Shown here: piece by piece, positions 17,920-35,151 of the stretch
Position numbering within the stretch: the stretch's first letter is position 1
Layout of the letters: each line of letters starts with the position of its first letter
Source: Clostridia bacterium
GTDB lineage: Bacteria; Bacillota; Clostridia; Christensenellales; CAG-138
Direction: 5' to 3'
NCBI GenBank assembly: GCA_030526995.1
Contig: JAUNBP010000009.1
Coordinates: forward strand, 1 to 46,685
Length of the DNA stretch: 46,685 nt
Program-made: the position numbers and the translations under genes
Notes under the pieces: model-generated
The model's input: only the letters and a program-made list of their open reading frames with translations
Database searches by the model: none
What the model was told of the DNA's origin: nothing

Positions 17920-18120
17920 ATGAAATATTTCGCTTCGCTCAATGTGAAATACCTCGCTTGCGCTCGGCATGAAATATCTCACTTCGTTCGATATGAAATA
18001 AAATTTGCCCATATGTGCCGCAGCACATTTCATATTTGCAAGGCAAATATTTCATGGCGAAGCCATTTCACTTGCCCGCAGGGCAAATTTCATTGGAGCT
18101 GCCGCTCCTACGGCAGCTCC
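17920..18120. repeat. Array of short hairpins punctuated by ATGAAAT / ATTTCAT
   Basis: Left half: RTGAAAT at 17920, 17944, 17969 and 17993, spaced 24-25 bases. Right half: the complement ATTTCAY at 18027, 18049, 18065 and 18087. Between the right-hand copies lie small perfect stems with different sequences: TTTGCAAGGCAAA, GGCGAAGCC and TTGCCCGCAGGGCAA, preceded by TGTGCCGCAGCACA. A 9-bp stem, GGAGCTGCC/GGCAGCTCC (18095-18120), closes it and overlaps the end of the sigma-factor gene. No protein is encoded. It may stop both convergent transcripts. Confidence 0.8.
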
Positions 18121-20174
18121 TTCGCTTGCATCTCTGTTACAAGGCCGTTTTTTATTGTCATGGTTCCGAAGAACTCTGCGTCCTTATAGTCGTACTTGTC
18201 GAGCAATTCCCGATAGGCGTCGAGGCTTTGAAGCGGGAAGCTCGAGTAGGCGGAGCTGTCCGTAAGGCTGTGTTGAATCTTATATGTGGAAAGCTCCTCT
18301 GCCGTAAAGGTTGCCCCCTTCTCGGTTTCGATAAGCTCGGGGTGTTTTCTGTCGACGAGCTCGAGGTCGGCGTTGAACGCTATCAGCACCCTTTCCTCCT
18401 TATAGTATCGGCTGTCCCCAAACAGTACCACTCGCTCCGCATCGTCGCCCCTTAAAAGGCTTATCGCCTCCGCTTGGGTGATGCTTGTGCAGGTGTAGAC
18501 GAACATCCAGTATATGCCCTCCCCCTCGTGTATCTGTTCGTACTCGTCAAACCAAAAATAGTAGCTACCGTCGTCGAGCATGGAGCGGCTCACCTTATCG
18601 AAGCAGTCGCTGTGCATCCAGCAAAACGTTCCCCAGTGATTGACAAAGTACCAGTCGCCCCGCTTGCTCAATACCCCGAGCGTCTTGCCGGTCTCGAGCG
18701 TGCCGAGCTTTGTTGAGGTAGCGGCGGGAGCGGAGCGCATGTTGGAGCCGTCCTCGGCGGTCGTAACCACGAGATAGGGTTCGTCCAGCTCGTTTATGGG
18801 CTCGGTCAGGTCGTTAAGATAGGCGTTGGTGTTCTCCTCAAACATCCACACCGCAAAGCATAAGGCTCCCGAAGCCCAGCCCCATTTGCCGTCCTCGTAT
18901 TCCACCAAAAACCAGTTCGACTTTGCGGCGGCTGAGTTCATCCTCGTTCCGAACGGAACGGACTCCACTATATCGTAGTCAAGGGAGGGCCCCTTGCGAA
19001 TGTAAAGCCGCTCCTGAGCCGCTGCGGTGAGCTGCGATATTCCTCCAAGCCAATCCGAATCCGTAGGCACGTAGTCAAGCCCCGATGCGGCTATCGCCCC
19101 GTAAAGCGTATCGGCGTCGGGTACGGTCGTGGGGGCGGCGGTAGGCTCCTCGGTGGGCGCTTTGGTAGGCTCCTCTGTGGGCTGTTGGGTGGTAACGGTG
19201 GCGGTGAGCGTGGGCCGAGCCGTCTGCGGCTGTTGGCTGCTAACGGCGGAGGTGAGCGTGGGCTGAACCGTATGCGGCTCCTCCGTAGCTATGGTTGAAC
19301 TTGGCTCGGGTTCGGACAGGAGCAGCGCCTCCCCCGACTCGGGCTCCTTTTTTAATATCACTATCAGCATTGCGACAACGGCGCAGGCAGCTACCGTAAT
19401 CAGGGCGGGGACAAGCAGTCGCTTGTAGGGGAAGCTGCCCCTCTTTTTGGGGCTTAACTCCCTAACCTCCTCCTCGGGTTCGTATATCTTTGTATAGACC
19501 TGCTCGTCGAAATCGTCACGAAACATCAGCGCAGCGGGCGCCTCATAGCCGCTTGCAAGCGCCTTGATAAGCTCGAACACGTCCGCCATGGCAAGCACCT
19601 TGCCGAGCTTGTTTGCTTTCACCGCCTCCGCCATCTGCTTTTGCAGGTTTTCCCTGCCCAAGAACAAGCGGCTCTTTATTGCTGCCTCGCTGCAATTCAT
19701 GCGCTTGGCTATGGTCTCCACCTCTAAGCCGAGATAGAACCTGTACATCAGCGGCAGCCGCTGGGCGTCGGGAAGCCTGTCCACCATTTGCGAAAGCAAA
19801 AGCTGCGTTTGGTGGTCGCCCATATAATAGTAGCAGTAGCCCGTGTCCTCCTTCTCTCGAAAATCATACTCGACGTAGACCTTGGATTGGCGTTCAAAAT
19901 CCGAGAACAGCACGGGCTGACGGCTCTTTTGCAGCTTGCAGCAGAGGTTTTCGGCAATGAGTTCGAGCCACTCCAAAAAGGTTGACTCGTCCTCGAGCTG
20001 GGTAAGGTTGCGCATCGCCGTCAAAAAGCTCTCCTTGGCGGTGCTCAAGGCGAGCTGCCTGTCCGCCAACATTTTTTGGCACAGAAAATGAACCCTGCCG
20101 ATGCTCTCCCTGTAAAGCAGCTCTATCGCATCGGGGTCTCCGTTCCTTGCCAGCCGAACAGTCCTCATGTCCAT
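18108..20174 (-). CDS. ECF-type sigma factor fused to a membrane segment and extracellular SH3b domains
   Basis: 688 residues from ATG 20174. The promoter TATAAT at 20206-20211 rules out the upstream in-frame ATG at 20234. Domains: sigma region 2-like (about 8-80: NGDPDAIELLYRESIGRV ... FLEWLELIAENL); sigma region 4-like helix-turn-helix (about 132-182: LPDAQRLPLMYRFYLGLEVE, then IAKRMNCSEAAIKSRL); one membrane segment (about 253-275: LLVPALITVAACAVVAMLIV); a Thr/Pro/Glu-rich tether (about 290-355); two SH3b domains (about 388-437 and 470-525); and an unrecognised C-terminal domain. SH3b domains commonly bind cell-wall peptides. The layout suggests a wall sensor whose cytoplasmic sigma part acts at the membrane or after release. 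The sigma core is divergent, so it might instead be a non-catalytic relative. Confidence 0.82.
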   Translation of the reverse strand: MDMRTVRLARNGDPDAIELLYRESIGRVHFLCQKMLADRQLALSTAKESFLTAMRNLTQLEDESTFLEWLELIAENLCCKLQKSRQPVLFSDFERQSKVYVEYDFREKEDTGYCYYYMGDHQTQLLLSQMVDRLPDAQRLPLMYRFYLGLEVETIAKRMNCSEAAIKSRLFLGRENLQKQMAEAVKANKLGKVLAMADVFELIKALASGYEAPAALMFRDDFDEQVYTKIYEPEEEVRELSPKKRGSFPYKRLLVPALITVAACAVVAMLIVILKKEPESGEALLLSEPEPSSTIATEEPHTVQPTLTSAVSSQQPQTARPTLTATVTTQQPTEEPTKAPTEEPTAAPTTVPDADTLYGAIAASGLDYVPTDSDWLGGISQLTAAAQERLYIRKGPSLDYDIVESVPFGTRMNSAAAKSNWFLVEYEDGKWGWASGALCFAVWMFEENTNAYLNDLTEPINELDEPYLVVTTAEDGSNMRSAPAATSTKLGTLETGKTLGVLSKRGDWYFVNHWGTFCWMHSDCFDKVSRSMLDDGSYYFWFDEYEQIHEGEGIYWMFVYTCTSITQAEAISLLRGDDAERVVLFGDSRYYKEERVLIAFNADLELVDRKHPELIETEKGATFTAEELSTYKIQHSLTDSSAYSSFPLQSLDAYRELLDKYDYKDAEFFGTMTIKNGLVTEMQAKELP

Positions 20175-20205
20175 AATGTACGCCCCTGCCCTTTTCTTCA
20201 TCTTA

Positions 20206-20234
20206 ATTATACATAACTTACATACGGCTGTCAA
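20206..20234 (-). promoter_or_regulatory. Promoter of the sigma/SH3b gene
   Basis: Minus strand TTGACA, 17 bases, TATAAT. The consensus housekeeping form implies steady expression rather than dependence on its own ECF product. Confidence 0.85.
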
Positions 20235-20348: not shown

Positions 20349-20972
20349 ATGAACAGATATGTCCCCATAAGCACGCTGAGGCGGCTGCCGGTGTATCTTC
20401 ACTATGTCCGTTCAATCAAGGGCGAGCGGAAGAACGTCTCCGCTGCGGTGATTGCGGAGTTTTTCGGGCTGAATCCCGTTCAGGTTCGCAAGGACTTGGC
20501 TGCCGTCAGCGGGACGGGCAAGCCCAAGACCGGCTATGACGTTGAGGAGCTTATTTGCCAGATTGAGAGCTGCCTCGACTGCAACAACGAGACCAAGTCG
20601 GTTTTAATCGGAGCGGGCAACTTAGGCAGTGCGCTTTTGAGCTACAACGGCTTTTCCGACTACGGCATAAACATAGTTGCAGCCTTTGACACCGACCCCG
20701 AAACGGTGGGCAAGAGCATAGGCGGCAAGCCCGTTTTACCGCTGTCCGACCTTGAGTCCATATGCCGCTTTTCCAAGATTCGCCTCGGCATCATCACGGT
20801 GCCCGCAGGCTCTGCACAGGAAATTTGCGACCGCCTCGTTTCCTGCGGAATAACTGCCGTTTGGAACTTTGCGCCAACGATACTCAAGGCCAAGGATGGC
20901 GTTTTGATTGAGAACGAGAACCTTGCGTCCTCGCTTGCAATCCTCTCCCGCCACCTGCTTTTTGAGAGGTGA
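20349..20972 (+). CDS. rex: Redox-sensing transcriptional repressor Rex
   Basis: 207 residues, the family size. Rex binds DNA when NADH/NAD+ is low and lets go when NADH builds up, turning on fermentative dehydrogenases and hydrogenases. Seen: an N-terminal winged helix (PISTLRRLPVYLHYVRSI ... FFGLNPVQVRKDLAAV), a Rossmann fold starting SVLIGAGNLGSALLSY, and a C-terminal AVWNFAPTIL segment. First gene of the redox island. Its neighbours lysR, adhE and the hydrogenases are typical Rex targets. The classic TTGTTAA-type Rex site is not seen upstream, so the recognised sequence in this organism may differ. Confidence 0.96.
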   Translation: MNRYVPISTLRRLPVYLHYVRSIKGERKNVSAAVIAEFFGLNPVQVRKDLAAVSGTGKPKTGYDVEELICQIESCLDCNNETKSVLIGAGNLGSALLSYNGFSDYGINIVAAFDTDPETVGKSIGGKPVLPLSDLESICRFSKIRLGIITVPAGSAQEICDRLVSCGITAVWNFAPTILKAKDGVLIENENLASSLAILSRHLLFER

Positions 20973-20976
20973 GCGC

Positions 20977-21900
20977 ATGAACCTATTGCACCTCAAATAT
21001 GCGATTGCAATCTCGGAAACCAACTCGATGACCAAGGCTGCCGAGAAGCTCTACACCGCCCAGCCCAACCTCTCCCGTGCCATGCGCGACCTTGAAAGCT
21101 CGCTCGGAATCACGATATTCAAGCGCACCTCCAAGGGCATATACCCAACGGATGAGGGCGAGGAGTTTTTAAGCCGCGCTCGGAAAATCCTTGCTGAGGT
21201 GGACGACCTCGAGGCCAAGTACAGGGACCGTCAGGGCAGGGCTATGCGCTTCTCCGTTTCCGTGCCCCGTGCAAGCTACATAGCCTGCGCCTTCACCGCC
21301 TTTATAGATAAGCTCGACCCCGAACTCAGTGCGGAGATATACTACAAGGAGACCAACGCCCTCCGTGCCATAAGCAACCTCCAAAACGCCGATTACAAAC
21401 TCGGCATCATCCGCTACCAAGCGACCTACGAGAAGAATTTTCGGGATATGCTGAAAGAAAAGGAGCTTTGCTCCGAGCTTTTGTACGAGTTCAACTACCG
21501 ACTTTTGATGTCCGAAAAGCACCCGCTTGCAGCCTGCGATAACGTTCGCCTTTGCGACCTGTCGCCCTACATTGAGATAGCCCACCCCGACCCCTTCGTG
21601 CCCTCCCTGCCCATGCCTACCGTCCTCAAAAACGAACTGATTGACGATACCGACAAGATAATCTACGTCTTTGAGCGGGGCAGCCAGATGGACCTTTTGA
21701 GCCAAAACCCCCTCACCTTTATGTGGGTGTCCCCGATTCCCCAAAGAATCCTCGACCGCTACGGGCTTACAGAGCGGAGCTGCGCCGAAAACACCCGCAA
21801 ATACCGTGACGTTTTAATCTATAAAAAGGATTATCGCCTCTCAAATCTCGATCACGCCTTCCTCGATGAGATTGTAAAAATAAGAGCCGTCCTGCCTTAA
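20977..21900 (+). CDS. LysR-family transcriptional regulator
   Basis: 307 residues from ATG 20977, with GAGAGGTGA upstream and 4 bases after the rex stop. Longer upstream starts would overlap rex without an SD. Seen: a LysR winged helix (MNLLHLKYAIAISETNSMTKAA ... AQPNLSRAMRDLESSLGITIF) followed by an effector domain of about 210 residues. The effector is unknown. Its gene faces adhE, and a palindrome centred about 60 bases upstream of the adhE transcription start fits the usual position of a LysR activator. The most likely role is control of adhE and the genes behind it. Confidence 0.92.
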   Translation: MNLLHLKYAIAISETNSMTKAAEKLYTAQPNLSRAMRDLESSLGITIFKRTSKGIYPTDEGEEFLSRARKILAEVDDLEAKYRDRQGRAMRFSVSVPRASYIACAFTAFIDKLDPELSAEIYYKETNALRAISNLQNADYKLGIIRYQATYEKNFRDMLKEKELCSELLYEFNYRLLMSEKHPLAACDNVRLCDLSPYIEIAHPDPFVPSLPMPTVLKNELIDDTDKIIYVFERGSQMDLLSQNPLTFMWVSPIPQRILDRYGLTERSCAENTRKYRDVLIYKKDYRLSNLDHAFLDEIVKIRAVLP

Positions 21901-21910: not shown

Positions 21911-21977
21911 CATATCGATAAAGCTATATCGGTATGCGATTTGGGAATTTCACATTTCTGCCTTTTGGGGCTATACT
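21911..21977 (+). promoter_or_regulatory. adhE promoter with upstream palindromic operator
   Basis: Promoter TTCACA (21949-21954), 17 bases, TATACT (21972-21977). Upstream, GCATATCGATA (21910-21920) and TATCGGTATGC (21927-21937) are inverse repeats with one mismatch around a 6-base gap. Each arm contains TATCGRTA, as at rex. The imperfect -35 and the operator placement suggest activation. Confidence 0.6.
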
Positions 21978-22008: not shown

Positions 22009-24636
22009 ATGAATTTCGAAAAAAATCTTATTGTCAACAGCGTTGAGAGCCTTGAAGAATGCTTAAGGCGGGTCAAAAGGGCGCAGAGCGAGTATGCTTT
22101 GTTCAGCCAAGAGCAGGTTGACCGCATATTCTTATCGGCGGCAATTGCAGCCGACAAGGCGAGGCTTGAGCTTGCAAAGAGCGCTGTTTTTGAGACTGAC
22201 ATGGGCGTTGTCGAGGACAAGGTAATAAAGAACAACTACGCCGCCGAGTACATTTACAATGCCTACAAGGACGTTAAAACCTGCGGCGTTGTCGATGAGG
22301 ACCGTGTTTACGGCACGCAAAGAATCTTGGAGCCCGTGGGCGTTGTAGCCGCCGTCATCCCTACCACCAATCCCACCTCCACCGCAATATTCAAAACCCT
22401 GCTTGCGCTTAAAACCCGCAACGGCATGATAATAAGCCCCCATCCGAGGGCCAAAAACTGCACGATTGAGGCCGCCAAGCTCGTTTTGGAAGCGGCGGTG
22501 GCTGCAGGCGCACCCGAGGGCATCATCGCATGGATAGACGTGCCGAGCTTGGAGCTTTCCAACCTTTTGATGCGGGAGGCGGACTTGATTTTGGCAACCG
22601 GCGGCCCCGGCATGGTCAAGGCTGCCTACTCCTCCGGCAAGCCCGCAGTAGGCGTGGGTGCAGGCAACACCCCTGCGATAATCGACGACAGCGCCGACAT
22701 CGAGCTTGCGGTAAACTCCATTATACATTCCAAGACCTTCGACAACGGCATGATCTGCGCCTCCGAGCAGTCGGTAATCGTGCTCGACAAGGTCTATGCC
22801 AAGGTCAAAAAGGAGTTTGCAAGCCGCAACTGCTACTTCCTCGACCGAGATGAAACCGACAGGGTTAGAAAGACCATCATAATCAACGGTGCGCTAAACG
22901 CCAAGATAGTCGGGCAGAGCGCATACAAGATTGCCTCCCTTGCAAACGTTTCCGTTCCCGAAAGCACAAAGATTTTGATAGGCGAGGTCGTAAGCTCCGA
23001 ACTCTCCGAGGAGTTTGCTCATGAAAAGCTCTCCCCCGTGCTTGCGATGTACCGTGCAAAGGACTTCGACGAGGCGATAGAGAAGGCGTGCCGCCTCGTT
23101 GCCGACGGAGGCTACGGTCACACCTCCTCGATTTACCTCAACGAACTATCCGAGACCGATAAGCTGAGCAAGTTTACAAAGGCGATGAAAACCTGCCGCA
23201 TCCTCGTCAACACGCCCTCCTCGCAGGGCGGTTTGGGCGATCTCTATAACTTCAAGCTGACCCCCTCGTTGACCCTCGGCTGCGGAAGCTGGGGCGGGAA
23301 CTCCGTTTCCGAGAACGTAGGCGTCAAGCATCTTATGAACATAAAAACCGTTGCAATAAGGAGGGAAAATATGCTCTGGTTCCGTGCCCCCGAAAAGGTC
23401 TACATCAAGCGTGGTTGCCTGCCCGTGGCTCTCGATGAGCTTGGCAATGTTATGAACAAGAAGCGGGCGTTCATAGTTACGGACAGCTTTCTCTATGAGA
23501 GCGGCTGCACCAAGCCGATTGAAAACAAGCTCGACGAATTGAACATCCTGCACACCACCTATTCCCGAGTAGCCCCCGACCCGACCTTAGCCTGTGCCAA
23601 GGAGGGCGCAGCTCTTATGGCGGATTTCAAGCCTGACGTTATAATTGCCGTGGGCGGCGGCTCCGCAATGGACGCGGCAAAGATTATGTGGGTGCTGTAC
23701 GAACATCCCGAAGCGGACTTTATGGACATGGCAATGCGCTTTATGGACATTAGAAAGCGGGTCTACACCTTCCCGAAGATGGGTGAAAAGGCTTACTTTA
23801 TCGCAATTCCCACCTCGTCCGGCACGGGCTCGGAGGTAACGCCCTTTGCGGTAATCACCGACGAACGCAGCGGCGTAAAGTACCCGCTTGCCGACTACGA
23901 GCTGCTGCCGAAGATGGCAATAGTCGACGCAAACCTCATGGACAGCGCCCCCGCGGGACTTACAAGCTCCTCGGGCATCGATGCGGTCTCCCACGCCCTC
24001 GAAGCCTATGCCTCGATGATGGCCACCGACTACACCGACGGGCTTGCGTTGCAGAGCTTAAAGATGATATTTGAATACCTGCCCCGTGCCTATGACAGTG
24101 CAAAGAACAAGACCCCCGACCCCAAGGCACGTGAGAAGATGGCTGACGCCGCAACGATGGCGGGCATGGCCTTTGCAAACGCCTTCTTGGGCGTAATGCA
24201 CTCGATGGCGCATAAATTGGGTGCCTTCCACCACATTCCGCACGGCGTTGCCAACGCTTTGATGATGACGGAGGTGCTGCGCTTTAACTCCAAGGAGGCG
24301 CCGACCCGCATGGGCACCTTCCCGCAGTACGACCATCCACACACGCTGTCTCGCTATGCGGAGGTTGCGGACGCTCTCGGCGTAAAGGGCAAAACCGATG
24401 AGGAGAAGCTCGAAGGTCTGATTAAAAAGATTGAGGAGCTAAAGGCCTATATAGGCATCAAACCTACAATCCGAGACTATGTGACGGATGAAACCGACTT
24501 TTTGGCACGGCTCAACAGCATGGCGGAGCAGGCGTTTGACGACCAATGCACCGCAGCCAACCCCCGCTACCCGCTCATCGGTGAAATCAGGACGATGTAC
24601 CTAAACGCCTACTACGGCGAACACAAGGATATATAA
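22009..24636 (+). CDS. adhE: Bifunctional acetaldehyde-CoA/alcohol dehydrogenase
   Basis: 875 residues from ATG 22009, with AAGGAGG seven bases upstream. Family length is about 870. Converts acetyl-CoA to acetaldehyde to ethanol, using two NADH, in the cytoplasm, where it usually forms spirosome filaments. Seen: N-terminal aldehyde dehydrogenase with the catalytic cysteine C250 in DNGMICASEQ, the linker near residue 450, then an iron-type alcohol dehydrogenase with GGGSAMDAAKIMW, PTSSGTGSEVTPF and the metal-binding MAHKLGAFHHIPHG. It drains excess NADH, consistent with Rex and the upstream operator. Confidence 0.97.
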   Translation: MNFEKNLIVNSVESLEECLRRVKRAQSEYALFSQEQVDRIFLSAAIAADKARLELAKSAVFETDMGVVEDKVIKNNYAAEYIYNAYKDVKTCGVVDEDRVYGTQRILEPVGVVAAVIPTTNPTSTAIFKTLLALKTRNGMIISPHPRAKNCTIEAAKLVLEAAVAAGAPEGIIAWIDVPSLELSNLLMREADLILATGGPGMVKAAYSSGKPAVGVGAGNTPAIIDDSADIELAVNSIIHSKTFDNGMICASEQSVIVLDKVYAKVKKEFASRNCYFLDRDETDRVRKTIIINGALNAKIVGQSAYKIASLANVSVPESTKILIGEVVSSELSEEFAHEKLSPVLAMYRAKDFDEAIEKACRLVADGGYGHTSSIYLNELSETDKLSKFTKAMKTCRILVNTPSSQGGLGDLYNFKLTPSLTLGCGSWGGNSVSENVGVKHLMNIKTVAIRRENMLWFRAPEKVYIKRGCLPVALDELGNVMNKKRAFIVTDSFLYESGCTKPIENKLDELNILHTTYSRVAPDPTLACAKEGAALMADFKPDVIIAVGGGSAMDAAKIMWVLYEHPEADFMDMAMRFMDIRKRVYTFPKMGEKAYFIAIPTSSGTGSEVTPFAVITDERSGVKYPLADYELLPKMAIVDANLMDSAPAGLTSSSGIDAVSHALEAYASMMATDYTDGLALQSLKMIFEYLPRAYDSAKNKTPDPKAREKMADAATMAGMAFANAFLGVMHSMAHKLGAFHHIPHGVANALMMTEVLRFNSKEAPTRMGTFPQYDHPHTLSRYAEVADALGVKGKTDEEKLEGLIKKIEELKAYIGIKPTIRDYVTDETDFLARLNSMAEQAFDDQCTAANPRYPLIGEIRTMYLNAYYGEHKDI

Positions 24637-24648: not shown

Positions 24649-25398
24649 ATGAACGCAGACAGAATTATCGCTGTAAGAACCTCAAAGACCGTCTACCGTG
24701 ACGGCGACACGGTGCTGAAAGTCTTTGACGAGGACTATAAAAAGTCCGACATCCTAAACGAGGCGTTAAATCAGGCTCGAGTCGAAGAGGCAGGGCTTAA
24801 GGTGCCGAAGATTCTCGAGGTGCTGAAAACGGACGGCAAGTGGGCTATTCGATCGGAGTTTATCGCAGGCAAGACCCTGCAACAGCTCATGGACGAAAAC
24901 CCCGACAAGTTCGATGAGCTTTTGGAACGCTTTGTCGATATTCAGCTTGAGATTCTCTCGCACAAGGCGCCGCTTTTGAACAAGCTCAAGGACAAGATGA
25001 ACCGCAAGATAGGCGAAAGCGCCCTCGATGCCACGGCAAGATACGAGCTGCACATTAGGCTTGACGGGATGCCCACGCATCACAAGATTTGCCACGGCGA
25101 CTTCAACCCGTCCAACATAATAGTAACGCCCGATAACGAGGCCTATGTTTTGGACTGGTCGCACGTCACGCAGGGCAATGCCTCCGCCGATGCCGCCCGC
25201 ACCTACCTGCTGTTTTGGCTTTCGGGCGACATAGACGGGGCTGAAAAGTACCTCGACCTGTTCTGCAAAAAGAGCGAGACCGCCAAGAAGTACGTGCAGA
25301 GCTGGATGCCGATAGTTGCGGCAAGCCAATCGGTCAAGGGCAAGAAGGAGGAGCGGGAATTCCTGCTCCACTGGGCAAACGTAGTAGATTATGAGTAA
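24649..25398 (+). CDS. Small APH/choline-kinase-fold phosphotransferase
   Basis: 249 residues, SD AAGGAGG, 12 bases after adhE. Seen: an N-lobe with DGDTVLKVFDEDYKK (candidate ATP-binding lysine), IRSEFIAGKTLQQL, the catalytic loop HGDFNPSN at about 149-156, and the metal-binding LDWSHV. The fold is that of aminoglycoside phosphotransferases and choline kinases, but no resistance context is present. Sensory [FeFe]-hydrogenase loci elsewhere often include a Ser/Thr kinase along with a PP2C phosphatase. This protein occupies that slot and may be the kinase of the pair. A metabolite kinase is the alternative. Confidence 0.75.
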   Translation: MNADRIIAVRTSKTVYRDGDTVLKVFDEDYKKSDILNEALNQARVEEAGLKVPKILEVLKTDGKWAIRSEFIAGKTLQQLMDENPDKFDELLERFVDIQLEILSHKAPLLNKLKDKMNRKIGESALDATARYELHIRLDGMPTHHKICHGDFNPSNIIVTPDNEAYVLDWSHVTQGNASADAARTYLLFWLSGDIDGAEKYLDLFCKKSETAKKYVQSWMPIVAASQSVKGKKEEREFLLHWANVVDYE

Positions 25399-25410
25399 AG
25401 GAGAATTCTA

Positions 25411-25653
25411 ATGAAAATCACGGTATGTATCGGCAGTTCCTGCCACATCAAGGGCTCGCGTCAAGTCGTTGAGCAGCTTCAGTCCCTCATTGCGGAGCAT
25501 GGGCTCAAGGAGGAGATAGACCTTGCAGGTACCTTCTGCATGGGCAAGTGCCAAAGCGGAGTCAACGTCACCGTTGACGGCGAATGCTTTTCGGTAACCC
25601 CCGAAAGCACCCACACCTTCTTTTCGGAAACGGTTTTGCCCCGCTTGAAATAG
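25411..25653 (+). CDS. Thioredoxin-like [2Fe-2S] ferredoxin
   Basis: 80 residues. Seen: CIGSSCHIKG near the N-terminus and GTFCMGKC in the second half, four cysteines in the spacing of thioredoxin-fold [2Fe-2S] domains (NuoE/HydC-like C-terminal part). It carries single electrons. Lies between the kinase and the sensory hydrogenase, with SD GGAGAA. The likely job is electron exchange with one of the two hydrogenases, possibly linking NADH chemistry to them, although no flavin subunit is present here. Confidence 0.88.
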   Translation: MKITVCIGSSCHIKGSRQVVEQLQSLIAEHGLKEEIDLAGTFCMGKCQSGVNVTVDGECFSVTPESTHTFFSETVLPRLK

Positions 25654-25669
25654 CGGGCGGGAGTGAACG

Positions 25670-27346
25670 ATGGCGGATTATTTGAGGTTTCAAAAGTCGA
25701 GCTGCAAAAGCTGCTACAAGTGTATTCGGCACTGCCCCGTAAAATCTATCAGGTTTTCGGGCAATCAGGCCAACGTCATTCCCGACGAGTGCATACTCTG
25801 CGGTCAGTGCTACGTCGTCTGCCCGCAGAACGCCAAGGTCATGTTCGACGAGAGCGAGATAGTAGGCGTCCTTTTGCAAGGGGACGCTCCCGTTGTTGCG
25901 AGCATTGCGCCCTCGTTTGCCGCCTACTTCCCCGACGTTGGCATAGAAGCCCTGTCCGAAGCCATGCGAAAATTGGGCTTCCACTCCGCCGAGGAAACCG
26001 CCCTCGGCGCAACCATAGTCAAGCGTGAGTACGAAAGGCTTACAAAGAGCTCGGAGATGGATGTAATCATTACCTCCTGTTGTCATACGGTAAACCTCCT
26101 GATTGAGAAATACTATCCCGAGCTCTGCGGGTTTTTAGCCCCCGTCGTAACCCCGATGAAGGCGCACTGCGACGATATCAAAAGGCGCATACCCACCGCC
26201 AAGACCGTCTTTGTAGGGCCCTGCCTCTCCAAGATGGATGAGGCTGAAAAGGAGGGCATCGATGCGGTTTTGACCTTTGATAAGCTCGAAGCCATGTTTG
26301 AAAGGGCAAATATCACGCTCCACAAGGGGCGCAGGGTAGCCGAGGACGGGCTTGCCCGCCTCTTCCCTACCGACGGCGGCATCTTAGGCACGCTCAAATA
26401 CAAGAATCCCTCCTACACCTACCTTTCGGTGGACGGACTTGAAAGCTGCAAAAGGACGCTCGACGATATCCGTGACGGCGGGGTTCGCCGCTGCTTTATC
26501 GAGATGTCCGCCTGCGTGGGCAGCTGCATAGGCGGGCCCATCATGGAAAAGCGGCACAGCTCCCCGATTAAAAACCTCGTAAACGTCCGAACCTATGCGG
26601 GCGAAAACGACTTTGACATAGCCCAGCCCGCAATCGAAAAGATCCGCTGCGAGCGTCCTGCCCTCTTCTGCGACAGGGCTATGCCCTCCGAGGCTGCGAT
26701 AAACGAAATCCTTCGCAAGATGGACAAGTTCAAGCCCGAGGACGAGCTGAACTGCGGAAGCTGCGGCTATGAGACCTGCCGCAAAAAGGCCATTGCCATA
26801 TATCAGGGCAAGGCGGAGATAACGATGTGCCTGCCCTACCTCATGGAAAAGTCCGAGAGGTTTTCAAACAACATCTTGGACAACACGCCGAACGGAATCT
26901 TGGTCGTCAACGAGGCCTACGAGGTTCAGCAGATAAACCCCGCCGCCATGAAGATGCTGAGGGTGCGCTCAAGAGCCGATGTTGTGGGCTGCCCCGTCGT
27001 AAGGCTCATGGACCCGCTGCCGTTTATCGAGGTTTTGGAGCATAAAAAGCGAGTGGCGGGCAGGCTCGACTACTATGCGGAGTTTGACAGGTACCTTGAG
27101 CTTACGATAGCAACCGACAGGGTATCGGGCAACATGATAGCGATATTTCGGGACGTGACCGATGAGCAGACCGCCAAGCAAAAGAAAGCGGAACTCAGCC
27201 GCCAGACCGTTGAAACCGCCGACAGGGTCGTAGACAAGCAGATGCGCATCGTTCAGGAGATAGCCTCCCTCTTGGGCGAAACCGCTGCCGAGACCAAGAT
27301 TGCCCTATCCAAGCTCAAGGAGTCGATAAAAGATGATGACGAATAA
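25670..27346 (+). CDS. PAS-containing sensory (group C-like) [FeFe]-hydrogenase
   Basis: 558 residues. Order: two [4Fe-4S] ferredoxin motifs (CKSCYKCIRHCP at 12-22, CILCGQCYVVCP at 41-51); an H-cluster domain with TSCC (136-138), GPCLSK (184-188) and ACVGSC (281-286), whose four cysteines match the ligand positions; a further Fe-S motif NCGSCGYETC (361-370) with a later cysteine at 387; a PAS domain (about 400-500, FSNNILDNTPNGILVVNEA); and a C-terminal coiled coil. Group C enzymes (HydS) have low turnover and are thought to sense H2 or redox state, passing the signal through PAS to a kinase or phosphatase. The downstream PP2C gene overlaps it by 14 bases. HydEFG maturases are not in the window. 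Confidence 0.9.
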   Translation: MADYLRFQKSSCKSCYKCIRHCPVKSIRFSGNQANVIPDECILCGQCYVVCPQNAKVMFDESEIVGVLLQGDAPVVASIAPSFAAYFPDVGIEALSEAMRKLGFHSAEETALGATIVKREYERLTKSSEMDVIITSCCHTVNLLIEKYYPELCGFLAPVVTPMKAHCDDIKRRIPTAKTVFVGPCLSKMDEAEKEGIDAVLTFDKLEAMFERANITLHKGRRVAEDGLARLFPTDGGILGTLKYKNPSYTYLSVDGLESCKRTLDDIRDGGVRRCFIEMSACVGSCIGGPIMEKRHSSPIKNLVNVRTYAGENDFDIAQPAIEKIRCERPALFCDRAMPSEAAINEILRKMDKFKPEDELNCGSCGYETCRKKAIAIYQGKAEITMCLPYLMEKSERFSNNILDNTPNGILVVNEAYEVQQINPAAMKMLRVRSRADVVGCPVVRLMDPLPFIEVLEHKKRVAGRLDYYAEFDRYLELTIATDRVSGNMIAIFRDVTDEQTAKQKKAELSRQTVETADRVVDKQMRIVQEIASLLGETAAETKIALSKLKESIKDDDE

Positions 27347-28514
27347 GCTCTGCGCCGATATAGGTTGCCTCTCGATAAATCATGCGGGCGAGCAGCTCTG
27401 CGGCGATCATTACGAGGTTGTAGAGACCGAGGACGGCAAAAGCACCGTCTTGGTGCTTGCCGACGGGCTTGGCAGCGGCGTAAAGGCCAACATTCTCTCA
27501 ACGCTCACCGCAACGATTCTCTCAACGATGCTATCGGCAAACACCCGCTTGGAGGACGCCGTGGAAACGCTTGCAGCCACGCTTCCGGTCTGTTCGGAGC
27601 GCGGGGTGGCGTATTCGACCTTTACGATAATCAAGGTGACCAACAACTCCCGTGCCGAGATAATTCAATACGACAACCCCCGTGTCGTGTTGCTTAGAAA
27701 CGGCGAAAACTTAGAGCTTGCGTTCACCGAGACCGTAATCTCCAACAAGCGCATCCTAAAGGCGGAGACCGAGATATTTGAAAACGACGTGTTCTTGGCC
27801 TTTTCGGACGGCGTTGAACACGCAGGCGTCGGCGTGAGCTACAACTTTGGCTGGGAGAGGGATAACATCATAGACTTCATCTCGCCCTTTTTGGATGCGG
27901 GCTTTACCGCAAAAACGCTCTCGACGCTTTTGATAGACAAGACCAATGAACTGTACGGCGGAAACCCCGGCGACGACGCCACGGTCTGCACGCTCAGGAT
28001 AAGAAAGCGGGAGCCCGTAAACCTCATAATAGGCCCGCCCGCAAACAGGGACGATCTAAACCGCATGATGGCGCTGTTCTTCTCCAAGGAGGGCAAGCAC
28101 ATAGTCTGCGGCGGCACCACCTCCTCCCTTGCGGCAAAGTATCTGCACAAGGAGCTTGTGCCGAGCCTCGACTTTTTCGACCCGGAGATACCGCCCACCG
28201 CCTCCATCGAGGGCGTAGACCTCGTTACCGAGGGCGTTGTGACGATAAACCGAGTTCTAAGCTATGCCCGTGACTGCCTTGCAGACAACAAGAACTTTGA
28301 CCGCTGGGGAAGTAAGCACGATGGGGCATCACTCATCGCCCGTGCGCTGTTTGAGGATGCCACCGACATAAATTTCTTCGTAGGAAAGGCGGTAAATCCC
28401 GCCCATCAGAACACCGATCTTCCGATTAATTTTACGATAAAGATGCAGCTCGTAAGGGAGCTTGCCGCCTGTCTTGAAAAGATGGGCAAGAAAATCAAAG
28501 TCAGCTATTTTTAA
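27333..28514 (+). CDS. SpoIIE/PP2C-type protein serine phosphatase
   Basis: 393 residues. ATG 27333 has AAGGAG eight bases upstream, inside the end of the hydrogenase gene. A second ATG follows at once. Seen: the metal-binding motifs LADGLGSGVKA, FSDGVEHAGVG and GDDATV in a PP2C (SpoIIE-like) domain (about 1-225), then a C-terminal domain of about 165 residues with VCGGTTSSLAAKYL. No membrane segment, so not a true SpoIIE. PP2C genes next to group C hydrogenases are a recognised pattern, and the phosphatase is the probable output of the hydrogen sensor. The target phosphoprotein is unknown. Confidence 0.88.
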   Translation: MMTNKLCADIGCLSINHAGEQLCGDHYEVVETEDGKSTVLVLADGLGSGVKANILSTLTATILSTMLSANTRLEDAVETLAATLPVCSERGVAYSTFTIIKVTNNSRAEIIQYDNPRVVLLRNGENLELAFTETVISNKRILKAETEIFENDVFLAFSDGVEHAGVGVSYNFGWERDNIIDFISPFLDAGFTAKTLSTLLIDKTNELYGGNPGDDATVCTLRIRKREPVNLIIGPPANRDDLNRMMALFFSKEGKHIVCGGTTSSLAAKYLHKELVPSLDFFDPEIPPTASIEGVDLVTEGVVTINRVLSYARDCLADNKNFDRWGSKHDGASLIARALFEDATDINFFVGKAVNPAHQNTDLPINFTIKMQLVRELAACLEKMGKKIKVSYF

Positions 28515-28523
28515 GGAGGGCTT

Positions 28524-29972
28524 ATGCGTAAATTCGATACCAAGGTACAGCACCTGAAATACAAGGTTTTGCTCCACGTTGCCCGTCACGCATGGGAGGG
28601 CAATCTTATGGAGCATCTTTTGGACATTCCAAAGGAGATAATCCCGGGCAAGACCCCGAGTATGCGCTGCTGCGTTTACAAGGAGCGGGGCATCCTGTCG
28701 GAAAGGGTCAAGCTCGCCTGCGGCGGCGACAAGCACAACCCGAACATCATCGAGGTTTTGGACATCGCCTGCGACGACTGTCCCGCCGGCGGCTACACCG
28801 TAACCGACACCTGCAGGGGCTGCCTTGCCCACCGCTGTGAGGACGTATGCCCGAAAAATGCGATAACCTTTGACGAGCATCAAAAGGCGCACATCGACAA
28901 GTCCAAGTGCGTAAACTGCGGAAAGTGCGCCTCCGTCTGCCCATATGCGGCGATAATCGACCGCAAGCGTCCCTGTGAAAACGCCTGCAAAATAAAGGCC
29001 ATTTCCCCCGACGAGGACGGCAGTGCAAAGATTGACAACGAGCGTTGCATACAGTGCGGCGCCTGCGTCTATCAATGCCCGTTCGGGGCGATTGCCGACA
29101 AGTCCTTTATCATCAACGTTATCGACCTTCTAAAGCGCAGCGAAAACGGCAAAAACTACAAGGTCTATGCGGTGGTGGCACCGAGTATCTCAAGCCAGTT
29201 CCGCTATGCAAAGCTCGGGCAGGTCATCACCGCAATAAAAAAGCTCGGCTTCTACCACGTCATAGAGGCTGCCTTGGGTGCGGACATGGTGGCATACTCC
29301 GAGTGCAAGGAGCTTTTTGAACGCAAGTTTTTAACCAGCTCCTGCTGCCCCGCCTTTGTGCGCTACATTGAAACACAGTTCCCGGAGCTTGAAGGCGCAA
29401 TCTCGCACAACCCCTCGCCCATGGCTGCAATATCCGAGTACATAAAGTCCACCGACAAGACCGCCAAGGTAGTGTTCATAGGCCCCTGCACCGCAAAGAA
29501 GGCGGAGTTTTTGAAGCCCTCGGTGCGCCCTTACGTGGACAGCGTGATAACCTTTGAGGAATTGCAGGCGCTGTTCGACAGCCGTGACTTTGACATAGCC
29601 TCGTTTTCGGAGGATGTGCTTGACAACGCCTCATATTTTGGTAGAATATTTGCACGAAGCGGCGGACTTTCCGATGCGGTGGCACAGGGACTCAAAGAGC
29701 GCAACCTCGACAAGGACTTTGAGCTTAAAGCCGTGCGCTGCGATGGCATAGAACAGTGCCGAGCTGCACTTATGAAGGCAAAGCTGAGCCGTTTGGACGG
29801 CAACTTCATCGAGGGCATGGCGTGCGTGGGCGGCTGCATAAACGGGGCGGGCTGCTTAACCCACGGCGAAAAGAACCGTGCCGAGGTCGATGCCTACGGC
29901 AGGGAGGCGCTCGAAAAGACCATTTCAGACGCCGTTTCGATTCTAAATATCGTGAAAATGGAGGAAGCATGA
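28524..29972 (+). CDS. Group B-like monomeric [FeFe]-hydrogenase
   Basis: 482 residues. Seen: an N-terminal region with CRGCLAHRCEDVCP (about 97-109), then ferredoxin-type motifs CVNCGKCASVCP and CIQCGACVYQCP, then the H-cluster motifs TSSCCPAF (about 271-278), GPCTAKK (320-326) and ACVGGCINGAGC. The alanine after SCCP and this third motif fit group B rather than the bifurcating group A enzymes. Makes or uses H2 with ferredoxin in the cytoplasm. SD GGAGGG, 9 bases after the phosphatase gene. It may be the enzyme whose expression or activity the sensory branch controls. Confidence 0.92.
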   Translation: MRKFDTKVQHLKYKVLLHVARHAWEGNLMEHLLDIPKEIIPGKTPSMRCCVYKERGILSERVKLACGGDKHNPNIIEVLDIACDDCPAGGYTVTDTCRGCLAHRCEDVCPKNAITFDEHQKAHIDKSKCVNCGKCASVCPYAAIIDRKRPCENACKIKAISPDEDGSAKIDNERCIQCGACVYQCPFGAIADKSFIINVIDLLKRSENGKNYKVYAVVAPSISSQFRYAKLGQVITAIKKLGFYHVIEAALGADMVAYSECKELFERKFLTSSCCPAFVRYIETQFPELEGAISHNPSPMAAISEYIKSTDKTAKVVFIGPCTAKKAEFLKPSVRPYVDSVITFEELQALFDSRDFDIASFSEDVLDNASYFGRIFARSGGLSDAVAQGLKERNLDKDFELKAVRCDGIEQCRAALMKAKLSRLDGNFIEGMACVGGCINGAGCLTHGEKNRAEVDAYGREALEKTISDAVSILNIVKMEEA

Positions 29973-30415
29973 CAAAAATTTTATTCGTCTGCCACGGCAA
30001 CATCTGCAGAAGTCCGATGGCGGAGTTCATTATGAAAGACCTTGTAAAAAAGGCGGGAAGAAGTGAGGACTATTACATAGAGTCCGCAGCAACGAGCGAC
30101 GATGAGACGGGCAACCCGGTCTACCCGCCCGCAAGGCGCAAGCTCGAAGCCCTCTCCATAGACTGCTCGAAAAAGCGGGCGAGGCGGCTTGTCCCCTCCG
30201 ACTACGAGAAATTCGATTACATCATAGGCATGGACGAAGAAAACCGCAGAAACATGAAAAGGCTCTTTTTGGGCGACCCCAAGAACAAGGTCTCGCTGCT
30301 TTTGGACTTTACCCTTCCCCCTCGGCAGGTTGCCGACCCTTGGTACACCGGCGACTTCGACGCAACCCTAAAGGACGTGCTTGAAGGCTGCAAACATCTC
30401 TTAAAAACTACTTAA
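29969..30415 (+). CDS. Low-molecular-weight protein phosphatase
   Basis: 148 residues from ATG 29969, which overlaps the hydrogenase stop as ATGA, with GGAGGAAGC upstream. Seen: the active-site loop CHGNICRSPMAEF near the N-terminus (C-x5-R plus S) and the general-acid DPWY near residue 118. The family removes phosphate from tyrosine or, in the YwlE branch of Firmicutes, from arginine. The sequence does not decide which. Last gene of the redox island. A second phosphatase in the same transcript strengthens the impression of a phospho-signalling locus. Confidence 0.93.
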   Translation: MTKILFVCHGNICRSPMAEFIMKDLVKKAGRSEDYYIESAATSDDETGNPVYPPARRKLEALSIDCSKKRARRLVPSDYEKFDYIIGMDEENRRNMKRLFLGDPKNKVSLLLDFTLPPRQVADPWYTGDFDATLKDVLEGCKHLLKTT

Positions 30416-30501: not shown

Positions 30502-33500
30502 ATGAAAAAAATCTTTGCTTTAATCCTGTCCCTTATGATGGTCCTCGCACTTTTGCCTGCGATATCATTGGCACAGGAGCCTGTCGTTATCGACATTATT
30601 GAAGTGACGGACTTCCACGGTGCGCTCGTAACCTCGAGCAATCAGCCCGTGGGCGCCGTTTTGACACGACACATTAAGGAGATTAGGGAGGACAATCCCA
30701 ACGGTACGCTGCTGCTCGGCGGCGGCGACATGTATCAGGGCACGAGTGTTTCCAACATTCTAAAGGGCGTGCCCGTATCCGACTGGATGGATTACACCGG
30801 CTTCGATGTAATGGCAGTCGGCAACCACGAGTTCGACTGGGGCTTGGATACCTTTGAGTACACCACAGCCGCAAACGCAACCTACGACATCCTTGCCAAC
30901 AACATCTACTGGCTTGAGGACGGGACGGACTCGGCAGGCAAGGAGCATGTGGCGGGCGAAACCCGCTTTGACAGCTATGGCGTGTACGAGAAAAACGGCG
31001 TGAAGATTGCGGTCATCGGCTCCATTGCAGACGGGATAGAGTCCGCCATTGCGATGAACTGCCTGACCGACTATGAGCCCTTCGGTGACGTTGCGGAGGC
31101 CTTTAAGAATACCGTGGCTCAGATGAATGCGGACGGCGTTGAGTACGACTGCATCATAAGCCTCGTTCACGGCGCAGGCAGCTCGCTCACCGACATCTGC
31201 GCCCTTGCCGACGACTACCCGATAGTGGCGGTGTTCGGCGGGCATTCCCACGGCACCAACACCCTAAATTACACGACCGAAGGCGGCAAGAACGTCCCCT
31301 ACTACGTGGCCGCCTCCAACGGCTACGGCTACGTTCACATTCAGATTGAGGTGGACGCCGAGGGCAACATCACGGTTCCCGAAGCCACCTCTGCCGACTA
31401 TGTTTCCATCAGCACCCGAGGCGACGAAAACGGCTATAACTGCACCAACCCCATCTACGATGAGGGCGCACAGCAGATAGTCCTCGACGCCCTCGCCTCC
31501 GATGCGTACACCGCAATTGCCAACGAGATAGTGGGCTTTAGCTCGGTGGACCTTCCGAGAAGAACCCACGGCTTGAACGACTGGACCTGCGAGGCCATTG
31601 CAGCCTCTGTAGGTGCGGACGTTGCCTTTACCAACAGCGGCGGCCTGCGCTGCAACCTCGATATCGACGAAACGATACAGGATGCTTCGGTGGGCAACAT
31701 TCCGTACAGCCTCATCTATCAGTACATGCCGTTTGACAACTTCATCTACACGGTGGACTTGAGCTATGCCGAATTTGAAGCCCTGATGAAGGATATTGCG
31801 GCCAACTACACGAGCCTGCTCTCCTCGGGCGTTTACTACGGCTATGACAGCACCCAAGAAGACCCTGCGAACCGCCTCGTGTACTTCACAAAGGAGGACG
31901 GAACGCAATGGCAGGAGGGTGACACGATAAGGATTGCCGTGCCCGACTTCGTTCTAAACGGCGGCGACAACTTCCTCTGCTTCCGCAACCTTATGTTGGA
32001 GCGCAACGGCGTAACCGTTTCCTTGGAGCAGTATGCCATGGATAACGGCTACAGCGGCGTGGTTTTGCGCGAGGCGCTTGCGGACGATTTGCGCAACGCC
32101 AAGGAGGAAAACGGCGACTTTACAGACCTGTCCACAAGGCTCGACTACACCCCGCGCTCGGTGAACTTAAGACCTTTAGCTACTGCACTCTATTACTTGT
32201 TCAACACCACCGAAGCCATGGACGGAAGCGAAGTGAACTGCTATGAGCAATGGGCCCAGCCGGACGATTTTGTCGCACTTGAAACCGCAATGACTGCCGT
32301 GCTGACTGCCGTAGGCGACAAGTCCCATACCGAGGTCATAGAGGCGATGACAGCCCTTTCCGAAGCCATCGAGGTCTTTGAAGCCTCCTTAAAGTACGGC
32401 GATGTAGGCGCGGTTGAATTTGCCGTCATGTCCACTACCGATATGCACGGAAGATCCACCGAGCTTGACGCTGCCACGGGCAGGGCGAGCACGAACTCCA
32501 TGCCCCGCATTGCAAGCCTTGTAAAGGACGTTCGTGCGGAGTATGAGAACACGATTTTGATAGACAACGGCGACACGATTCAGGGAACCTTGGTAGCCAC
32601 CTATTGGATTACCAAGGAGACCGCCAAGCTCAACCCGATGATAGATGCGATGATTGAGCTGGACTATGACGTTTGGAACATGGGCAACCATGAGTTCAAC
32701 TACAATCCTTTGCAGCGTGACACGCAGGTTGCCTTTGCCGAGGCTGCGGGGCTTAACGTGCTGTCTGCAAACCTCGTGCTTAAGACCGAGGGCGAAAACT
32801 TTGCGGGTGATACCGTAGAAGCGGGCGAGCCCTACTACAAGCCCTATATCATAAAGCAGTTCACCGCCGATAACGGAAACGCAGTCAACGTTGCGGTGAT
32901 AGGCATAGGCAATGCCAAGAACGCCGACTGGGACGTTTCGACCAACTATCCCAATATGCAGTTCTCCTCCCTCGACAACCCCACGGGCGACATCGTATTC
33001 GAGGTCAATAAGTGGGTGGACTACATCAACAACAACGAGAGCGCCGACATAATCATAGTTGCGGCGCACTCGGGAGCGCAGGATACCTATGAGGACGGCA
33101 CTTTCAACCTTGAAAGCCAAGCCATCCGCATAATCACCGAGACCACGGGCGTCGACCTCGTCATTGCGGGTCACGACCATTACGCAGTATGCCGAACCTA
33201 TCAAAACGCAGACGGCGAGGACGTCTACCTTGTCAACGGCGGCGGCTATGCCCTTACAAACGTCGTGTTCAAGGCGAACTTCGATGCAGACGGCGCCTTT
33301 ATGGGCTATGAAATCGTCAGGGCGCTAAACCTCAATGCCGCAACGACGACGAACGATGTCGACATGGTTGAAAAGATGCAGCCCTACTATGACGCAGCCG
33401 AGGAGTGGGTTTTGACCCCGCTTGGCAACCTTGCGGGCGAATGGGTGCATTCCTCCAACACCAACGACCACGTTCTGTATCAGACCGACACCCTCGACCT

Positions 33501-35151
33501 CGTGCACAAGGCTCAGATTTGGGCTACTTGGCTCAGCTATGAGTCCGAGGGCATAGAGGGCGCAACCGTCTCGCTTGCCTCCCCGGTGTTCAACAACTTC
33601 CAGACCACGCCGAGAGAGGTCAATATGCGGGATATGATATCCCTCTACCGCTACGAGAACACGCTCTATGCGATAGATATGACCGGAGCGGAGCTCAAGG
33701 CATGGCTCAACACGCTGGCAAACAACTTTGAGATAAATGCCTCGGGCAGCATCGTCAAAAAAGCCTCCGCCAACATCTTTGGCATGGACTCCGTCTACGG
33801 CGTAGACTACCTGTTCGACATCTCAAGACCCGAGGGCGAACGCCTCGTCTACTGCTACTATAACGGCGAACTCCTCGAGGACGACACGGTTATACGTGTT
33901 GCCATCAACAACTACCGTCTCTCGGGCGCCTACGGCTGGAACGAGAACGTCGGCATCGACGACACCGAAGCGGTCTGGAGCGCAGCCTACTCGCTCGGCT
34001 CCGACAGGAGCCAAGTCAAGGTTCTCTTGGGCGAATACTTCACCTACATGGAGACCGTAACCGCCGACGACGCCCCCTACAAGGGCACCGATTCCGAGTG
34101 GGCGATGACGACCACCGCCCTCTACGGCGACGTTGACCGTGACGGAGATGCGGATTCGGCAGACGCTGCCTTCATCCTGCAAGTGGTTGTCAGCCTCAGA
34201 AGCGCAGACAAGACGCAGCAGTTCTTGGGCGATGTCACCGATGACGGCTCCATGGACTCCGCCGACGCCGCCGCCATCCTCCGCTACGTCGTTCAGATTA
34301 TCACCGAGTTCGAAGCGGAAAGGGAGTACAAAACCTATGAGGTGACCTATGAATCGAGTGTGCGTGAAGGCGTTGAAATCCCCGCCGTTGTCACCGTTCC
34401 CAAGGACTCTGCCAACTATCCGTTCGTAATTTTAGCGCACGGACACGGCGGCAACAAGGACGAGGGCGTGGGCTATGCCCGCCTTGCCATGGACTTGGCG
34501 GAGCAGGGAATCGCCTCTATCCGCATGGACTTCCCCGGCTGCGGCGACTCCACCGAATCGTTCAAGCTGAACACGATGACCAACATGAAAAACGACGTTG
34601 TGGATGCGATAGCCTACATGATCGAAACCTATGACGTCGAAGACTACTGCCTCGGAATCGTCGGCTATTCGATGGGCGGCAGAATTGCGCTCGAACTCGT
34701 AGCCGAAGAGAAGGCGAGCTTTGACACGATGGTGCTGCTTGCCCCCGCCGCCGACACCGAGGACCTTAAAGCCCTATTCGGCGGAGCCGACAACTGGGAA
34801 GTGCTCAAAGCCAAGGCGGAAACGGACGGCTTTGCAACCTTCACAACCATATACGGGCAGGTGCAAGACCTCTCTATCGAGTGGTTCAACGACTTGGAAG
34901 CCTATCCGAACCGCTCACTGATAGATGCTGCAGCCGCAAAGTGGGATTGGGCCTCCACGGTGCTGTACAACGATGAAGATGTTGCGGTTTCCCCCGCCGT
35001 ATCGCAGGCAGTGGCAGCGGCACTCGACTCGGATATTGTTGTCGTCCCAAGCGGCGGGCATGACTTTGGCTTCTACAGCGCCGACGAAGAGCGGCTGTCC
35101 TTCGTGTCCGACGCTGTCCTTGACGCCATCCTCACCGCCTACAGCTACTGA
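30502..35151 (+). CDS. Secreted tandem 5'-nucleotidase with internal dockerin and alpha/beta hydrolase
   Basis: 1549 residues. Signal peptide cut near residue 24 (ISLA-QE). Module 1 (about 25-545): UshA/CpdB-type metallophosphoesterase with TDFHG (36-40), GGGDMYQGT, GNHEFDW (107-113) and GGHSHG, plus the C-terminal nucleotidase domain. Module 2 (about 635-1190): a second copy with TDMHG (646-650), DNGDTIQGT, GNHEF (728-732) and AGHDHY. Then a complete two-repeat type I dockerin (about 1207-1272: YGDVDRDGDADSADAAFIL ... GDVTDDGSMDSADAAAILRY). Then an alpha/beta hydrolase (about 1285-1549) with HGHGGNKD, nucleophile GYSMGG (S1390) and a C-terminal SGGHDF histidine. All metal and catalytic motifs look intact. 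Likely job: extracellular release of phosphate and ester groups from nucleotides or esters while docked on a cohesin. SD GGAGGAACGC. Confidence 0.9.
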   Translation: MKKIFALILSLMMVLALLPAISLAQEPVVIDIIEVTDFHGALVTSSNQPVGAVLTRHIKEIREDNPNGTLLLGGGDMYQGTSVSNILKGVPVSDWMDYTGFDVMAVGNHEFDWGLDTFEYTTAANATYDILANNIYWLEDGTDSAGKEHVAGETRFDSYGVYEKNGVKIAVIGSIADGIESAIAMNCLTDYEPFGDVAEAFKNTVAQMNADGVEYDCIISLVHGAGSSLTDICALADDYPIVAVFGGHSHGTNTLNYTTEGGKNVPYYVAASNGYGYVHIQIEVDAEGNITVPEATSADYVSISTRGDENGYNCTNPIYDEGAQQIVLDALASDAYTAIANEIVGFSSVDLPRRTHGLNDWTCEAIAASVGADVAFTNSGGLRCNLDIDETIQDASVGNIPYSLIYQYMPFDNFIYTVDLSYAEFEALMKDIAANYTSLLSSGVYYGYDSTQEDPANRLVYFTKEDGTQWQEGDTIRIAVPDFVLNGGDNFLCFRNLMLERNGVTVSLEQYAMDNGYSGVVLREALADDLRNAKEENGDFTDLSTRLDYTPRSVNLRPLATALYYLFNTTEAMDGSEVNCYEQWAQPDDFVALETAMTAVLTAVGDKSHTEVIEAMTALSEAIEVFEASLKYGDVGAVEFAVMSTTDMHGRSTELDAATGRASTNSMPRIASLVKDVRAEYENTILIDNGDTIQGTLVATYWITKETAKLNPMIDAMIELDYDVWNMGNHEFNYNPLQRDTQVAFAEAAGLNVLSANLVLKTEGENFAGDTVEAGEPYYKPYIIKQFTADNGNAVNVAVIGIGNAKNADWDVSTNYPNMQFSSLDNPTGDIVFEVNKWVDYINNNESADIIIVAAHSGAQDTYEDGTFNLESQAIRIITETTGVDLVIAGHDHYAVCRTYQNADGEDVYLVNGGGYALTNVVFKANFDADGAFMGYEIVRALNLNAATTTNDVDMVEKMQPYYDAAEEWVLTPLGNLAGEWVHSSNTNDHVLYQTDTLDLVHKAQIWATWLSYESEGIEGATVSLASPVFNNFQTTPREVNMRDMISLYRYENTLYAIDMTGAELKAWLNTLANNFEINASGSIVKKASANIFGMDSVYGVDYLFDISRPEGERLVYCYYNGELLEDDTVIRVAINNYRLSGAYGWNENVGIDDTEAVWSAAYSLGSDRSQVKVLLGEYFTYMETVTADDAPYKGTDSEWAMTTTALYGDVDRDGDADSADAAFILQVVVSLRSADKTQQFLGDVTDDGSMDSADAAAILRYVVQIITEFEAEREYKTYEVTYESSVREGVEIPAVVTVPKDSANYPFVILAHGHGGNKDEGVGYARLAMDLAEQGIASIRMDFPGCGDSTESFKLNTMTNMKNDVVDAIAYMIETYDVEDYCLGIVGYSMGGRIALELVAEEKASFDTMVLLAPAADTEDLKALFGGADNWEVLKAKAETDGFATFTTIYGQVQDLSIEWFNDLEAYPNRSLIDAAAAKWDWASTVLYNDEDVAVSPAVSQAVAAALDSDIVVVPSGGHDFGFYSADEERLSFVSDAVLDAILTAYSY

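Follow-up and report, generated by a model that had tools for sequence, protein, structure and literature searches.

The stretch analysed here, called the window in the following, comprises the 46,685 nucleotides (nt) of contig JAUNBP010000009.1 from the Clostridia bacterium assembly GCA_030526995.1, in which it is contig 39 of a 1.79-Mb genome assembly that is 80% complete. Its central part carries a fermentation gene run built around HydS, a putative hydrogen-sensing [FeFe] hydrogenase, and an overlapping gene for a PP2C phosphatase with an additional C-terminal domain (CTD). A first-pass annotation had described six tightly spaced or overlapping genes at this site as one hydrogen-sensing phospho-signalling island, and the open reading frame (ORF) coordinates together with the domain matches bear out this physical arrangement, since all six genes are present, intact, close-packed and on the + strand. 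The features of the run are as follows.

20349..20972, + strand: Rex redox-sensing repressor at the flank of the cluster (NCBIfam Rex 249.6 bits, cut-off 130)
20977..21900, + strand: LysR-family regulator (PF00126, 1.4e-17; ATG at 20977 chosen, ORF opens at 20908)
22009..24636, + strand: adhE, bifunctional acetaldehyde/alcohol dehydrogenase (NF010378 1341.7 bits, cut-off 951)
24649..25398, + strand: APH-fold kinase (PF01636, 9e-12)
25411..25653, + strand: thioredoxin-like [2Fe-2S] protein (PF01257, 2Fe-2S_thioredx, 7e-7)
25670..27346, + strand: HydS (Fe_hyd_lg_C, PF02906, 8e-42; FeS 3e-10; PAS_8 8e-5)
27212..27325, + strand: C-terminal tail of HydS, amino acids (aa) 515-552, proposed as a PP2C-docking helix from its conservation and amphipathicity
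27333..28514, + strand: PP2C (SpoIIE-type) phosphatase (PF07228, SpoIIE, 7e-15)
28017..28511, + strand: CTD of the PP2C, aa 229-393, matching no described family
28524..29972, + strand: HydB, monomeric group B [FeFe] hydrogenase (TIGR04105, FeFe_hydrog_B1, 575.4 bits, cut-off 450)
29969..30415, + strand: gene of the low-molecular-weight (LMW) protein-tyrosine-phosphatase family (PF01451, LMWPc, 1.8e-29; ATG at 29969, the listed ORF opening earlier at a GTG)

The kinase gene starts 12 nt behind the adhE stop codon and is itself followed after 12 nt by the [2Fe-2S] gene, which precedes HydS by 16 nt. HydS and PP2C overlap by 14 nt, PP2C and HydB are separated by 9 nt, and HydB and the LMW phosphatase gene overlap by 4 nt; upstream of 24649, the same-strand run extends via adhE, LysR and Rex, that is from 20349 onward. 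The group B-like hydrogenase that had been proposed within the run is confirmed by its FeFe_hydrog_B1 score. Chance grouping of these genes can be excluded because their order is conserved in other genomes. Neighbours were counted in 80 named loci, which ranked best among 582 confirmed ones, with only testable loci in the denominators. In these, the [2Fe-2S] gene lies directly 5' of HydS in 70 of 77 loci and PP2C directly 3' of it in all 78, HydB comes after PP2C in 60/74, and adhE, LysR and Rex are found upstream in 34/64, 29/48 and 17/44, respectively. The kinase lies upstream of HydS (within 1.5 kb) in 51 of 72 loci and is absent in 21, and the LMW phosphatase gene is downstream in none of 60 (20 loci were untestable). 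The observation named beforehand as telling against the island, hydrogenase homologs that never occur with the kinase or the phosphatases, thus applies to the LMW phosphatase and to neither PP2C nor the kinase. Judged by these neighbourhoods, the LMW phosphatase gene merely happens to sit here and lies outside the conserved system, and its proposed role as a component had to be abandoned. In other members of the window's own family, the HydS-PP2C pair precedes HydABC-type genes, not HydB.

HydS is a hydrogenase that probably senses H2. The H-cluster cysteines C138, C185, C282 and C286 are kept in 81/81 HydS sequences, as is the Cx2Cx4Cx16C motif (C362, C365, C370, C387) of the C-terminal cluster, a motif described in PMC8163306. 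With Thermotoga maritima HydS (PMC10055695) it shares the H-domain, the PAS domain and, by motif, Gly and Ser at the positions of M353 and M497 in CpI. In contrast to the Ala of T. maritima HydS at the position equivalent to CpI C299, Cys is retained here (C137) in 80 of 81 relatives; this position is poorly conserved among sensory hydrogenases (PMC10055695, PMC8163306), and Cys occupies it in 17% of their sequences (PMC10055695). The tail is highly conserved, with a mean identity of 95% over the 81 sequences, compared with 93% for the N-terminal ferredoxin part, 79% for the H-domain and 72% for the PAS domain. The tail is also amphipathic: its moment of 0.456 is reached by 0.15% of shuffled sequences, the shuffle mean being 0.22.

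Not every HydS ends in this way. Among 196 genomes of the same class, which were surveyed by profile searches, nine carry a longer HydS (open frames of 765-919 aa) in which the profile match stops short of the tail, and the tail motif is missing in all seven long proteins read, which have a long C-terminal extension or other output domains. Six of the nine genomes are without a tail-bearing HydS, and a CTD was found in 0 of those six. In one long HydS (L285), Pfam identifies Sigma54_activat; the other six are similar by eye. The protein at 2245-4890 of L285, and by eye the long HydS frames in L286-L290 and L292, is HydS-like and fused to PAS and a sigma-54 activator with helix-turn-helix. Such a fusion may couple a hydrogenase of group C-like type directly to transcription, outside the C1-C3 outputs in the portion of HydDB seen. 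In another variant (L206:6287-11254), HydS is present as a tandem pair, the two copies being separated by a [2Fe-2S] gene and followed by a single PP2C.

The PP2C is predicted to be an active SpoIIE-type phosphatase by its catalytic residues, since D25, D44, G45, D159, G160, D214 and D215, the metal-binding Asp and Gly positions, are kept in 51/51 aligned rows. Of 69 same-length relatives, 50 were aligned, and L060 and the near-duplicate L035 were omitted from the final version. Residues 4-223 of the PP2C align with only the final quarter of the SpoIIE model, the protein starting at the catalytic domain. The CTD is conserved to the same degree as the catalytic domain, with 83% versus 79% mean identity, and Pfam and NCBIfam searches gave no significant match for it. 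Weak matches were TrbC (NCBIfam, 0.011) and RACo_C_ter (Pfam, 0.032), each for one member of 19, and the best PDB profile match was the phosphoheptose isomerase 3trj (E 0.0099); none of these was convincing. On this basis, the CTD appears to be an undescribed phosphatase domain.

HydS and PP2C-CTD form a near-obligate pair, and this pair is the sensor unit of the cluster. Their frames overlap by 8 nt in 69 of 79 loci, the window with its 14 nt being counted among the 79. In the class-wide survey, tail-bearing HydS was found in 59/196 genomes and PP2C-CTD, searched with a CTD-only profile, also in 59/196, with 58 genomes common to both (Fisher p ~1e-47, a value inflated by kinship and operon linkage). 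The sole genome with HydS only (G122) has a contig that ends about 300 bases after HydS. With the window's own genome excluded, 55 of 58 CTD matches lie directly after HydS; in G102, a further such case is cut by the contig ends, and in G156 HydS and PP2C-CTD are about 15 kb apart with both kept. The suspicion that the tail is specific for PP2C was thrown into doubt by Acetoanaerobium, where a tail-bearing HydS has no PP2C beside it, and the pairing was restored by a PP2C-CTD about 880 kb away on the same record.

A close relative of the cluster exists on plasmid pRUMAL01 of Ruminococcus albus 7, whose HydS was found in a protein search of a plasmid collection and is 57% identical to that of the window. 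The HydS/HydA2 cluster of this strain was reportedly the subject of work by Zheng and colleagues in 2014. The plasmid holds LysR, Rex, adhE, phosphotransferase, [2Fe-2S], HydS, SpoIIE phosphatase and hydrogenase genes in one run, with some differences from the window: LysR stands before Rex, there are two [2Fe-2S] genes, and no LMW phosphatase is annotated. Moreover, its hydrogenase is called group A1 by Greening et al. 2019 (PMC6776011), whereas that of the window fits the B1 model. The same paper reports that an eight-gene cluster there is down 111-fold when a partner organism removes H2. The earlier proposal that HydS and PP2C act as an H2-sensing unit beside adhE and a hydrogenase gains support from this strain, with its same arrangement and H2-dependent expression. 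Because nearly the same run is found on pRUMAL01, the window cluster is, by its gene content, assigned to HydDB group C3, listed as "phosphatase-linked (putative)" with its role undetermined (PMC5037454), and is not a new system; the cluster is real, as first proposed, but its newness is reduced by the R. albus record already in print. C3 is likewise defined by a sensory-type HydS and an adjacent Ser/Thr phosphatase, here the overlapping PP2C, and its table entry does not mention a HydS tail, a PP2C CTD or a pairing of the two. New here are the anatomy of the cluster, the HydS tail and PP2C-CTD as a unit, the transfer of the kinase to adhE and the removal of the LMW gene. A literature search, with most subscription papers outside its scope, gave nothing on the signal path or on an adhE-linked kinase.

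The reading preferred here, to which we assign a probability of roughly 60%, is that of a two-protein H2 switch of HydS and PP2C inside a fermentation operon, with the kinase separate and the LMW phosphatase incidental. H2 would react at the H-cluster of HydS, and the resulting redox change would reach the PAS domain by way of the four-cysteine cluster near the C-terminus and rotate the tail helix, which would dock onto the switch helices of PP2C and turn dephosphorylation on or off. The phosphatase domain of SpoIIE has its switch helices touched by a long regulatory helix, to which RsbP has a counterpart (PMC5468089). As the regulatory helix of SpoIIE contacts the switch helices and the PP2C starts directly at its catalytic domain, without a regulatory helix of its own at the N-terminus, we infer that the HydS tail may act in trans, as in a split RsbP/SpoIIE. 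The SpoIIE-type catalytic domain and the proposed control by a sensor-linked helix (the sensor of RsbP being a PAS domain) are thus shared with the Bacillus subtilis proteins, whereas here sensor helix and phosphatase reside on two proteins, an extra CTD is present, and the locus holds no STAS or anti-sigma gene. The dephosphorylated PP2C target would then raise adhE and HydB expression at high H2 and shift flux from acetate to ethanol, as in R. albus. Such a switch would narrow the signal relay of group C [FeFe] hydrogenases to a two-protein unit of conserved tail and new phosphatase domain, and would touch the choice between acetate plus H2 and ethanol in gut fermenters.

Several points weigh against this reading. 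The PAS match in HydS is weak (PF13188, PAS_8, 22.8 bits at a cut-off of 21.8), and the survey for tail-bearing HydS scored the seven best candidates per genome. Operon linkage alone would explain most of the co-occurrence, the unlinked cases numbering two only, and one genome (G181) keeps PP2C and the [2Fe-2S] gene with HydS missing. The kinase lies by HydS in 11 loci in which adhE was tested and absent, which also weighs against its assignment to adhE as discussed below. Finally, H2 could act via NADH and Rex instead of HydS-PP2C. The Rex operator consensus is TTGTTAAN4TTAACAA (14 scored positions), and near-consensus boxes (at least 11/14) precede adhE in 10 of 29 loci, with a perfect one in L141, compared with 1/62 for HydB and 3/80 for HydS. 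Together with the Rex gene encoded within the cluster, these boxes favour an operon controlled by Rex sensing NADH/NAD+, with HydS-PP2C acting elsewhere. This rival is nevertheless rather doubtful: the best box in the window reaches 9/14, none being near-consensus (the window's Rex may bind another sequence), and in R. albus strains 7 and 8 the regions preceding LysR, Rex and adhE likewise give 9/14 at best, even though the 111-fold response was reported in strain 7. A candidate regulator site before adhE, offered as a lead only, is a unique match in the genome (reversed control 0), and a similar pair occurs in a same-genus locus (L039):

21913..21934, + strand: TATCGATA-N6-TATCGGTA

Less probable still, and hence unlikely, is the implication of the first-pass annotation that the kinase phosphorylates, and the H2-gated PP2C dephosphorylates, a single common target, be it AdhE, LysR or Rex. 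The kinase keeps a complete set of active-site residues (K24, E38, D151, N156 and D169 in 37/37 rows), and its frequent location a short way (up to 1.5 kb) before HydS, also in the 11 loci without adhE, would agree with such a role. Across the 196 genomes, however, kinase matches above 250 bits occur in 47 (weaker matches, in 7 of 54 genomes, were left out, as was a second fragment in G099), and 27 of these are without detected PP2C-CTD, one being G122 with its HydS at the contig end; conversely, 39 of 59 CTD genomes have no kinase. The association of kinase and CTD is accordingly weak (odds ratio 2.1, p 0.044, kinship uncorrected), and no Ser/Thr column separates 49 kinase-linked from 20 unlinked AdhE sequences. 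Since the kinase directly follows adhE in 27/27 of the CTD-less genomes and tracks close AdhE relatives, it is, as far as gene neighbourhoods can tell, a partner of adhE, and a role dedicated to H2 sensing is not supported. In total, 42 of 48 kinase matches lie directly behind adhE (of the remaining six, G068 and G243 are cut by contig ends), and a kinase accompanies 42 of 54 AdhE proteins of at least 71% identity, 0/11 of the next group (including a partial copy in G068) and 0/26 at 47-50% identity. An exclusive role as H2-sensor partner is ruled out by the adhE linkage in genomes without CTD, and the kinase's proposed place in the sensor is not upheld, given also the 21 loci without it. The six genes do not form one phospho-relay; candidate substrates of the kinase shift to AdhE or AdhE metabolites, and its membership in the sensor should not be assumed.

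A further set of genes bears on the target of the phosphatase. The hallmark of partner switching, a STAS substrate and a HATPase anti-sigma kinase encoded alongside, is not found at the locus: HATPase_c_2 exceeds its cut-off on contigs 77 and 42 of the window's own genome and nowhere in the window, and the single STAS match of this 80% complete genome lies on contig 77 beside another HATPase, the locus being without a STAS protein. Contig 42 carries an island (L063:9986-18083) encoding NuoE, DRTGG, HATPase, a PAS-less hydrogenase-like protein, DRTGG, PHP, a ferredoxin-like protein, HydB and HydA, which resembles the M2e locus of Thermoanaerobacter mathranii (PMC8163306). Its HATPase is RsbW-like, and its hydrogenase-like protein is a second putative H2 sensor. 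In G156, PP2C-CTD heads a run of PP2C-DRTGG-HATPase-hydrogenase-like-DRTGG-PHP-HydABC, and in L092 the HydS-PP2C pair is divergent from, and adjoins, the HydABC island. The HydS-PP2C pair might then feed partner switching in this island, the RsbW-like HATPase phosphorylating a DRTGG protein and PP2C reversing it, a reading favoured by the island and the lone STAS match in the window's own genome; this is quite improbable, as these are two loci only, with L092 the one case among the 80 named loci, as DRTGG1 is found in 37/59 CTD genomes versus 61/137 without CTD (odds ratio 2.1, p 0.029, uncorrected; 7 of 105 DRTGG genomes, having weak matches only, were left out) and is missing from 22 CTD genomes, and as the window's own genome is 80% complete. 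A long shot of the same order is that HydS and PP2C are a split SpoIIE/RsbP opposed by the RsbW-like HATPase of the PAS-less (M2e-type) sensor, with DRTGG replacing STAS and the CTD recognising the DRTGG partner. If true, a single phospho-switch would be driven in opposing senses by two H2 sensors, which would thereby balance HydB and bifurcating hydrogenases.

On either side of the cluster, two further genes were seen by eye. Divergent from rex, positions 18108-20234 on the - strand encode a protein with a sigma-70-like N-terminal part and a long C-terminal extension. Downstream, positions 30502-35151 on the + strand encode a secreted protein of 1549 aa that seems to combine a pair of 5'-nucleotidase units with a dockerin-like stretch and with an alpha/beta hydrolase.

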